Position numbers and translations under genes: made by a program. From contig NZ_CAFJ01000006.1 in the NCBI RefSeq assembly GCF_000239795.1, positions 1-34,102 of the forward strand: DNA of 34,102 bases. The letters are read 5' to 3'. The DNA comes from Bradyrhizobium sp. STM 3809. Its GTDB lineage: Bacteria > Pseudomonadota > Alphaproteobacteria > Rhizobiales > Xanthobacteraceae. Positions 16,753 to 23,658 of the stretch are shown here, one piece after another. Below the pieces are notes generated by a model that was not told the DNA's origin, did not search any database, and saw nothing but the letters and a program-made list of their open reading frames with translations. Positions within the stretch are counted from its first letter, which is position 1; each line of letters opens with the position of its first letter.

Positions 16753-17133
16753 CTGTGTTCCGATCCTTCACACCGACTATCAATGAGCCGATGAGTCCGC
16801 GCCTGCATCGTCCGGCGGCGCGAACCTTAGTTTGCGAAGGCAGGCTGTCAATCAAGCAGGCTTGCATGCCGCCAATACGACATGCTCATGCGCCGCGGCT
16901 TACCGCTGAACGACCGCTTGGTTCCGAAAATCGGGACCTTCGCCTCGCCGCGCGTGAATCGCGCGCATCGCACGCCGCTCGCGCCGCAGGCATCGCCTTC
17001 CGCGCCACGCGGAGTCGACCAGCACCCTGCCTGCGCCCGCGCGCGATCCGTTGACGCAGTTCCCCTTGTTACATTGTTGCTGATCGACAACACCGCCGTC
17101 CGCGTGCTATCCGCCAGCCGAACAGGGGATGCC
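16753..17133. promoter_or_regulatory. Divergent region upstream of the amidase and metal-efflux operon
   Basis: About 380 bp between divergent starts. Several open frames cross it but have Arg/Ala-rich shadow composition and no ribosome sites. Near the efflux operon a weak inverted repeat TGTTG-N8-CAACA (17075-17092) lies 40 bp before the first start and could be an operator. A TTGACG hexamer at 17051 lacks a good -10 partner. I see nothing else. Confidence 0.35.
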
Positions 17134-17496
17134 GTGCGCAACAGTCGCCAGCGATATCTGACGCGCCGTCCGGGCTTGTTGCGCCGGATCGCCGCGCTGT
17201 GCCTGCTGCTCTCTTATCTCCTGGCCGGCGCGCTGCATGGCGCCTGCGACCTCGACGTCGCGCACGCGCCGTCTGGCAAGCCGGAGATCGCGGCGCTGCT
17301 CGACAAGGCCGGCCATGCCGACCCGCGCGGCATCGCCGATCATCATTGCCACGGCTGCTTCTCGGTCGCCGTGCCGCAACTGCAGCTCGCGGTGCTCCCG
17401 AGCGACATCGTCGCGGCGACAGATTGGCCGATCGTCGCAATGGGGGCCGGCATCCCGTCCGACTCCGATTCGCCTCCGCCCAAACACCTGATCTGA
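17134..17496 (+). CDS. Small secreted His/Cys-rich protein heading the metal-efflux operon
   Basis: 120 residues from a GTG at 17134, preceded by AGGGG at a good distance. The same frame is open further upstream (to 16882), but that extension has no ribosome site and a shadow-like composition. An arginine-rich N-terminus and hydrophobic stretch (LLRRIAALCLLLSYLLAGAL) look like a signal peptide or anchor. The notable feature is the metal-ligand cluster HHCHGC at residues 70-75. It resembles the small DUF2946-type proteins often found ahead of cobalt-zinc-cadmium efflux genes. A periplasmic metal-binding or sensing role is inferred. It ends 64 nt before the outer-membrane factor gene. Confidence 0.7.
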   Translation: MRNSRQRYLTRRPGLLRRIAALCLLLSYLLAGALHGACDLDVAHAPSGKPEIAALLDKAGHADPRGIADHHCHGCFSVAVPQLQLAVLPSDIVAATDWPIVAMGAGIPSDSDSPPPKHLI

Positions 17497-17560
17497 ATCT
17501 GACGTCAAGTGCCGGACGGCGCCAGCCGTCCTCATTGCCCGTCCAGACAGGTTGTTCGTC

Positions 17561-18825
17561 ATGCCATTCCCCGCAATGGCTGCGCGCGCTGCATGCGCCG
17601 CGGCCCTGCTCGCGCTGTTCGTGCACGGCGCGGCCGCGCAGAGCTTGACCCTGCGCGAGGCGCTGTCGCGCGCGCTCGCCGCCAATCCCAGGCTCTCCTC
17701 CGCCGATCGCGACGTCGGCATCGCCTCCGGCCAGCGGCTGCAGGCCGGCGCGCTGCTCAATCCCGAGCTGTCCTACGAGCAGGACAACTCGCTCGGCTCG
17801 GGCCCCTATCGCGGCACGCGCTCTGCCGAGACCACCTTGCAGATCAGCCAGGCGTTCGAATGGTTCGGCAAGCGCGACGCGCGCATCGCGGCGGGACAGG
17901 CCGGCGTGCGCGCCGCCGAGATCCAGCGCCAGGCGGTGCGGCTGGAGGTGCTGTCGGAAACCGCGGTCGCCTTCGTGACGGTGCTCGCGACGCAACGCCG
18001 CATCCAGATCCTCGATGACCAGGTCGCCGCCCTCGACCGGCTGACACCTTTGCTGCGGCGACGCGTCGAGGCCGGCGCGTCGTCGCCGGCTGAAACCGGC
18101 CGCGCCGAGGTCGCATCGGCACTGGTGCGCGCCGATCGCGAGCGCGTCAAGGCGACCCTGGCGAGCGCACGCCGCGAGCTCGCCGTGCTGACCGGCGACA
18201 GTCTTGCAAAACTCCCGTCCGTCACCGGCCGCTTCGACAGCACGGGCCAGCCGCCGTCGTTCCAGACCGTCATCGCGGCCATCGATGCCAACCCGCAGCT
18301 CGTGCGCTGGACCGCCATCTACGCGCAGCGCAACGCCGAGCTGCTGCTGGCACGGCTGAAGCCCTATCCCGACGTCCGCGTCAGCGCCGGCTGGCGTCAC
18401 TTCAACGATACGCAGGATGATGCCGTCAGGCTCAGCGTCTCCGTACCCATCCCGGTGTTCGATCAGAACCAGGGCAACATCCTCTCGGCGCAGGAGAGCG
18501 TCGCCAAGACCGAAGCCGAGCGCAAGGCCAACCGCAACGCCCTGCTGGTGATCGCGGGCCGCGCCTACGACTCGCTGCAGGGTTCGCTGCGCGAGGTGGC
18601 GGTGTTGCGCGAGATCGCGATCCCCAAGGCGCAGGAAGCCGCGGACGAGATCGCGCAAGGCTACAGCGCCGGGCGCTTCTCGCTGCTCGAAGTGCTGGAC
18701 GCGCAGGCGAGCGTGGCGCAGGCGCGGCTGCGCGAGCAGGAAGCACTGCAGAACATCCATGTCGCCGTGGCGACCATCGAAGGCCTGGTCGGCCGCCCCT
18801 TCACGCTGGCCCGGGAGATCGCGCG

Positions 18826-18829
<4 letters not shown>
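17561..18829 (+). CDS. czcC: CzcC-like outer-membrane efflux factor (TolC family)
   Basis: 422-residue outer-membrane channel of a heavy-metal RND pump. The ATG at 17561 begins a signal peptide ending HGAAA before QSLTLREALSRALAANP, the canonical start of the first OEP repeat. A TTG three codons earlier is a weaker alternative. Two long alpha-helical OEP repeats follow; the second includes GYSAGRFSLLEVLDAQ, the family's typical repeat end. Its stop overlaps the start of the membrane-fusion gene by ATGA, indicating coupled translation. Gene order C-B-A matches czc/cnr/ncc operons. The metal is not determined by this subunit. Confidence 0.92.
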
Positions 18830-23628
<4,799 letters not shown>

Positions 23629-23658
23629 TATCCCGTCTCCCGATGCCGCTCCGCACAA

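Follow-up and report, generated by a model that had tools for sequence, protein, structure and literature searches.

A conserved leader gene ahead of an IhpABC-type exporter operon in Bradyrhizobium as a candidate CutF-like metal sensor

In the cutFOG operon of Rhodobacter capsulatus, copper on the nascent, exported CutF chain delays export via a C-terminal stalling-like motif, and with export delayed, a stem-loop shielding the cutO Shine-Dalgarno sequence can be opened (PMC9973294). The accessible text of that article counts CutF-like proteins in the thousands, with OEP genes as their most frequent downstream neighbours, and proposes that metals other than copper are sensed by some of them (PMC9973294). 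As described in the accessible parts of two further articles, the RAPP motif of CruR stalls in a purified in vitro system (PMC12992588), and an LPPP arrest peptide stalls the ribosomes of B. subtilis well and those of E. coli hardly at all in vivo, perhaps on account of EF-P (PMC10987492).

Here we analysed a small gene at the head of an efflux operon in Bradyrhizobium sp. STM 3809; the whole stretch of DNA considered, 34,102 nt, is referred to as the window. A search of the article texts in one open-access library found the work on CutF, CruR and CzcI, and we recognised in it no published name for this leader. Our preferred reading is that the leader probably acts in cis as a CutF-like translational sensor of a divalent-metal exporter.

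The leader gene and the exporter operon behind it

The leader gene and its parts were located as follows.

17134..17496, forward strand: leader gene of 120 aa with a GTG start and a TGA stop, supported by homologues
17134..17244, forward strand: hydrophobic, signal-peptide-like N-terminus (residues 1-37), read by eye from the translation
17341..17358, forward strand: putative metal motif HHCHGC (residues 70-75), from the translation and leader alignments
17473..17484, forward strand: arrest-like C-terminal motif PPPK (residues 114-117), from the translation and leader alignments

The translation bears out the open reading frame, the hydrophobic N-terminus and the cluster H70-H-C-H-G-C75 of the original prediction; export is suggested by this N-terminus as seen by eye only. 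The protein ends in SPPPKHLI, and no Pfam model scored above its cut-off on it, nor did any NCBIfam model match. The GTG start and the 120-codon length are common to the window and all four close Bradyrhizobium relatives (L080-L083), whose leaders are 67-77% identical to that of the window. In the ten pairs formed by these five sequences dN was 0.12-0.19 and dS 0.45-0.83 (ratio 0.19-0.36). Because start and length are shared and dN lies well below dS, 17134-17496 is a genuine gene under purifying selection.

Three genes follow the leader.

17561..18829, forward strand: ihpA, outer-membrane channel subunit (NF045679, 759 bits; cut-off 650)
18826..19809, forward strand: ihpB, periplasmic adaptor with an N-terminal His stretch (NF045680, 538 bits; cut-off 450)
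19802..22987, forward strand: ihpC, CusA/CzcA-type RND pump (TIGR00914, 1552 bits)

The operon had been predicted to be czcCBA. This name is refined to ihpABC, since the first two products pass the NCBIfam equivalog cut-offs for IhpA and IhpB; judged by these scores, the operon is classed as an IhpABC divalent metal ion exporter. A 15-residue motif of the ihpC pump is presumably of the divalent-metal type, and, going by the title of one paper, IhpABC is linked with the iron homeostasis of B. japonicum. The His-bearing linker foreseen for the adaptor was found near the N-terminus of IhpB (His 37, 40, 48 and 54). On the plasmid loci L190, L191 and L192, ihpB and the pump gene are separated by a gene whose annotation reads P-II family nitrogen regulator; there is no space for such a gene in the window, where ihpB overlaps ihpC.

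The claim that no dedicated metal regulator adjoins the operon holds broadly, although the reverse strand carries a winged-helix (HTH_27) gene at 22975-23658, convergent with ihpC and overlapping its stop by 13 nt. This gene is a poor candidate for the operon regulator: its relatives were found in two (L081 and L083) of the 80 loci from named genomes, which extend only about 1 kb beyond the pump gene, and at no other fetched locus. It is perhaps linked to the hydrolase and binding-protein genes downstream of it.

Conservation with ihpA, two islands and a ruler

The leader is present in 19 of 60 related genomes, all 19 of them among the 36 genomes of its own genus, and 20 of the 21 non-self leader places lie directly 5' of an IhpA gene, the exception being L022. 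The reverse search recovered 32 IhpA copies in 24 of the 36 own-genus genomes. A leader-type open reading frame (CxxC plus a C-terminal PP) stands just 5' of IhpA in all 30 fetched loci, window included; 28 of these leaders passed a first filter, and L045 and L046 (CQFC, PPPIA) a looser one. Among the best 80 of 114 leader relatives in named genomes, ihpA begins within 400 nt in 79 and the ending PPP or PPK occurs in all 80. At the remaining locus, L148, the junction is kept and the first ihpA codons can be made out by eye, so it seems to retain an ihpA remnant. Conservation ahead of the efflux genes was one of the two points on which the original prediction had staked itself, and both collections of loci came out in its favour.

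The distance between leader and ihpA is 64 nt in the window, 53-73 nt in 111 of 113 junctions and 93 nt in the other two. Three named plasmids, from Nitrobacter hamburgensis, Rhodopseudomonas and Bradyrhizobium, carry the leader 54-59 nt 5' of ihpA; it is annotated there only as "hypothetical protein", and ihpA of the Bradyrhizobium plasmid as "TolC family protein". Across the taxonomic family of the window, leader matches occurred in 103 of 296 genomes and 22 of 47 genera, and a class-wide draw gave matches in 6 of 385 genomes, 2 of those from the window's own genus.

Comparison of the leaders points to two conserved islands. Invariant in 17 leaders are R17, H35, H71-C-H-G-C-F76 and P115-P-K117, and in a more diverse set of 18 only C72, C75, P115 and P116. 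The motif reads HCYTC, HCYSC or HCYVC in leaders before other IhpA paralogs, and HGCHGC in another family of the same order, whose leaders end in DLPPPRA or near variants. Little sequence is conserved between the His/Cys island, which ends in CxxC, and the PPP(K/R) island. Counted from the last motif Cys, the proline run nevertheless ends after 41 residues, a distance we call the ruler, in 102 of the 104 non-redundant leaders, that of the window among them, and after 42 in two (sd 0.14). In the same leaders the distance from hydrophobic core to motif ranges from 34 to 57 (sd 4.64); four residues follow the proline run in 89 leaders and two in 15. The 104 were obtained from 116 distinct leader/ihpA junctions by dropping three spurious frames and nine near-duplicates, and the ihpA start was re-set by script for L014, L015, L089 and L152. 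Four additional junctions outside the pairing counts given below (L049, L050, L077 and L099) all have the 41-residue ruler.

A stable periplasmic metal-binding protein working in trans, as a chaperone to IhpB or as a CzcI-like brake on the pump, would fit the purifying selection on the leader and the presence of a separate His stretch in IhpB. CzcI occupies the same position before czcCBA and is said, in the accessible text of its description, to quench CzcCBA for zinc and cobalt (PMC10127602). A free protein, however, needs neither a fixed spacing of 41 nor a proline end, and these are kept while the sequence between the islands is hardly conserved; moreover, CzcI-type proteins end in (E/D)RP-x-W in 9 of 10 cases and in PPP(K/R) in none. 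We therefore regard a protein acting in trans as unlikely. Membership of the window leader in the CzcI group was also rejected directly, at a BLASTP E value of 0.24 and with the (E/D)RP-x-W end absent.

The CzcI of C. metallidurans CH34 (L195:10177-10524) carries RAPD, a variant of RAPP, which ends 41 residues past its CxxC. As RAPD stands at 41 residues in only 3 of 10 CzcI-type proteins, this spacing is not a general feature of CzcI.

A wider view was taken from 40 further places in the taxonomic family, hand-picked for spread, divided equally between weak and strong matches and including some duplication (L344 and L360 are near-identical, and L365 is apparently the L148 place). In all 40 leaders the C-terminal PP has K, R or I after it. 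The ruler was 41 in 17 of the 35 measured by script and 40 or 42-44 in the other 18; it was 41 by eye in L336. The second Cys is missing in four of the 40. An ihpA-like gene comes next in 32 of the 40, a count biased by a search profile that included both conserved islands, and in the other eight none was found within the stretch examined.

Several leaders have other neighbours. The leaders of L328, L335 and L337, which carry CxxC and PPPK, have a gene for a MarR-type regulator about 200 nt downstream (family checked for L328); no ihpA-like gene was found in the stretch examined, and none of these loci was among the matches of the HTH_27 gene. In L359, a leader with GHCHGC and PPPPK has a CDF family exporter gene about 330 nt downstream, which scored above the CDF cut-off, had ZitB as its best single model while remaining under the ZitB cut-off, and is truncated at the end of the stretch. 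L076 and L022 hold leader-like frames (HHCHSC/HHCHGC, PPPK) with rulers of 40 and 41, respectively, which have no ihpA next to them. They lie about 200 nt 5' of a gene that looks FlgF-like (flagellar) by eye, near a second leader that does precede ihpA; on pMOL30, flgB-annotated genes are likewise found near metal-efflux genes.

The leader-ihpA junction and the promoter region

Folding of the window junction, together with the consensus of related junctions, predicted three paired elements.

17483..17495, forward strand: anti-Shine-Dalgarno arm AACACCTGATCTG in the last leader codons (fold, consensus and covariance-model match)
17514..17531, forward strand: apical hairpin GGACGGC-GCCA-GCCGTCC (fold and consensus)
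17544..17556, forward strand: 3' arm containing the ihpA Shine-Dalgarno sequence, AGGT at 17549-17552 (fold and consensus)

The predicted folding energy of the window junction is -33.2 kcal/mol (z -3.30), which 1 of 200 shuffles equalled. In the predicted outer helix the last codons of the leader, AACACCUG-A-UCUG, pair with CAGACAGGUUGUU, the Shine-Dalgarno segment, so that a stem-loop over the Shine-Dalgarno sequence, as in CutF-like genes, is predicted here with a masking probability of 0.88. RNAalifold, run with no structure given on 86 HCHGC-type junctions, paired leader ACCUG with CAGGU and added a GGGCG/CGCCC hairpin. When the full structure is applied, 90.5% of the alignment cells can pair, compared to 37-47% with a slid partner and 88.1% with within-column shuffles. 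The covariation score was 0.163 vs 0.124 and was reached by none of 500 shuffles, which ignore relatedness. Two of five covariation measures were unremarkable (both-side pairs and pair types, reached by 228 and 349 of 500 shuffles), and some slid versions match the real junctions in the number of both-side changes. Compensatory changes are confined to the inner helices; in the helix that holds the Shine-Dalgarno sequence, only one side varies.

In 93 of 104 junctions the Shine-Dalgarno sequence was predicted to pair with the leader end (P > 0.5), with weak masking (P <= 0.5) in the other 11, compared to 8 of 44 control gene pairs; among controls with a perfect Shine-Dalgarno 4-mer, 5 of 15 were masked. 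Tandem genes lying 40-80 nt apart in three own-genus genomes served as controls; a first set had only 11 pairs (2 masked), and looser limits on ORF length raised the number to 44. In a swap test that ignored relatedness, own pairing came to -12.61 vs -12.17 kcal/mol, a result equalled by 25 of 5000 permutations. A covariance model built from the 86 HCHGC junctions reached, beyond its training set, 6 of 7 HCYxC loci and the three named plasmids at E <= 1.2e-4, and gave weaker matches (E 0.08-0.22) to L076, L065 (0.14) and L044. It missed L045, L046 and 12 of 13 HGCHGC loci, and the control stretches gave no match at E <= 1. No known RNA family was found by an Rfam scan of 16800-18000 at E <= 1, and no terminator-like site in 17000-17620.

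Pairing of the last codons with the next Shine-Dalgarno sequence would be needless for a free protein, which argues further against action in trans. Plain translational coupling, in which translation of any upstream frame opens the hairpin and the His/Cys motif has no regulatory role, would need only the hairpin and the masked Shine-Dalgarno sequence. Real codons mask better than a synonymous-codon null in 87 of 104 junctions, the window not being among them (P 0.88 observed, null mean 0.93); random synonymous codons thus mask well at many loci, as coupling would allow. Coupling leaves the invariant CxxC, the proline end and the ruler unexplained, however, and of the explanations considered here we find it the hardest to credit.

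Two further elements were found upstream of the leader.

17067..17080, forward strand: operator-like conserved block TGTTACATTGTTGC, beginning 67 nt 5' of the leader
17084..17112, forward strand: promoter-like TCGACA-N17-CTATCC, read by eye, just 3' of the operator-like block

The block TGTTACATTGTTGC recurs within 3 mismatches in 71 of 103 junction loci and in none of 515 shuffles. As this block is conserved, a transcriptional regulator probably acts as well as the leader. The pattern YGTWACAWTGTTGC had one exact match, at this promoter, in five of eight genomes searched; a wider operator regulon was discarded, as all further matches carry one mismatch and occur about as often as control matches do. 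A consensus promoter scan of 17000-17620 reported nothing.

Proposed mechanism and comparison with known systems

That the gene is a conserved leader is well supported by the sequence comparisons. Its role as a metal-sensing arrest peptide is plausible by analogy, and we infer stalling, metal binding and the nature of the metal alike. A cis-acting nascent-chain sensor is favoured because of the PPP(K/R) end, the near-fixed spacing of 41 and the Shine-Dalgarno pairing, and because the anatomy of CutF and CruR can be recognised in the leader. Of the roles first proposed for the protein, sensing of metal is therefore a fair reading, whereas capture or chaperoning in the periplasm is disfavoured by the same three features.

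A paused ribosome reaches about 15 nt downstream. In the proposed mechanism, the exported nascent chain would bind divalent metal via the putative HHCHGC site, and binding would lengthen a ribosome pause at PPPK. In the LPPP stall the P site lies on the third codon of the motif (PMC10987492). If the leader pauses at the matching place, with the second proline (Pro115, 17476-17478) in the P site, the ribosome would cover 17479-17493 and hence nearly the whole arm at 17483-17495. The Shine-Dalgarno sequence would be freed and ihpA translated under metal excess, with ihpB and ihpC following via coupling; without metal, the leader would be completed and released and the hairpin would close. Metal is expected to prolong the pause and to switch the pump on because the downstream genes encode an exporter.

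Against a strong stall, the proline motif of CutF is, by the accessible text of its description, not a strong stalling sequence by itself (PMC9973294). That LPPP hardly stalls E. coli ribosomes in vivo points the same way (PMC10987492). Within the wider family, the drift of the ruler between 40 and 44, the four leaders of 40 without a second Cys and the eight without an ihpA-like gene also count against a CutF-like reading. So do the weak masking at 11 junctions, the loci missed by the covariance model, the one-sided variation of the Shine-Dalgarno helix, the two unremarkable covariation measures and, in the window, masking no better than that of random synonymous codons.

The logic might instead be reversed, as in a CruR-type leader: metal would relieve the PPPK pause, and Rho-dependent termination rather than unmasking of the Shine-Dalgarno sequence would decide. 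CruR, which acts via Rho, is laid out in the same way, with a CXXC, a conserved spacing and RAPP at the C-terminus (PMC9426467, accessible text), and the sign of a metal effect is unreadable from sequence. CruR, however, precedes a copper-repressed importer with a 162-nt intergenic region (PMC9426467, accessible text), whereas here an exporter follows after 64 nt. The predicted masking of the ihpA Shine-Dalgarno sequence, moreover, makes most sense if pausing activates the pump. We accordingly give this reversed logic little credence, less than the trans-acting protein.

Metal exporters are usually held to be under DNA-binding regulators or two-component systems. If the CutF-like reading is true, translation of Bradyrhizobium IhpABC would be under the control of a peptide sensing metal during its own export, and the two copper cases, CutF and CruR, would be extended to divalent metals. 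The leaders with HCHGC, HCYTC, HGCHGC and CQFC on one ruler would then form a natural series for the study of specificity and tunnel geometry. We also entertain, at somewhat less than even confidence, that these leaders form a separate nascent-chain sensor family, centred on the taxonomic family of the window. Such a family would respond not to copper but to a divalent metal (zinc, iron, cobalt, nickel, manganese or cadmium), would have a PPP(K/R) arrest motif and a ruler of about 41 residues that are its own, and would set the translation of an RND exporter.

Among the described systems, CzcI of the czcICBA operon of Cupriavidus metallidurans resembles the leader as a His/Cys protein standing first before an RND metal-efflux operon (PMC10127602, accessible text); CzcI is exported, as the leader may be. 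The CzcI of CH34 ends in DRPQWQRLA and, unlike the window leader, has no PPP(K/R) end. The leader also resembles LPPP/RAPP-like arrest peptides, which carry a proline stall motif near the C-terminus of small exported proteins ahead of regulated genes; according to the accessible parts of the sources, these are mostly tied to Sec/YidC and other pathways, unlike the putative metal leader considered here (PMC10987492, PMC12992588).

With CruR of Bordetella pertussis, a DUF2946 protein, the leader shares a CXXC and a C-terminal Pro-Pro, and the spacing of CruR matters for its regulation (PMC9426467, accessible text). CruR and DUF2946 have RAPP where the window family has PPP(K/R), and the first Pro of PP stands 45-54 residues after the Cys, with a mode of 48, in 22 of 25 DUF2946 proteins, compared to 37-40 in the leaders here. 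Assignment to DUF2946 was rejected: the window leader gave no match to PF11162 at E <= 1 (gathering cut-off 23.7 bits) and ends in PPPK instead of RAPP. Five of 17 members of the leader family match DUF2946 weakly (best E 0.0043), and HHalign gave a probability of 20% between the two.

The closest likeness is to CutF. Both are small proteins with a Cys motif and C-terminal prolines, followed by a short intergenic stem-loop, predicted in the window, over the Shine-Dalgarno sequence; CutF is exported, as the leader may be, and the commonest neighbours of CutF-like genes are the RND outer-membrane (OEP) genes (PMC9973294, accessible text). By the features that mark CutF-like proteins, the leader has 120 aa (limit below 150), PP within its last 15 residues, HHCHGC in its mature part with both Cys invariant in the 18 diverse leaders, and ihpA 64 nt on (limit 1000) on the same strand; leaders of the window type may be among the CutF-like proteins of the supplementary list of that article. 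The two differ in that CutF, as far as the accessible text describes it, has CxxxC, responds to copper and controls a multicopper oxidase, whereas the window leader has HHCHGC and PPPK before a divalent-metal exporter and, unlike CutF as described there, holds its predicted masking arm inside its own last codons.
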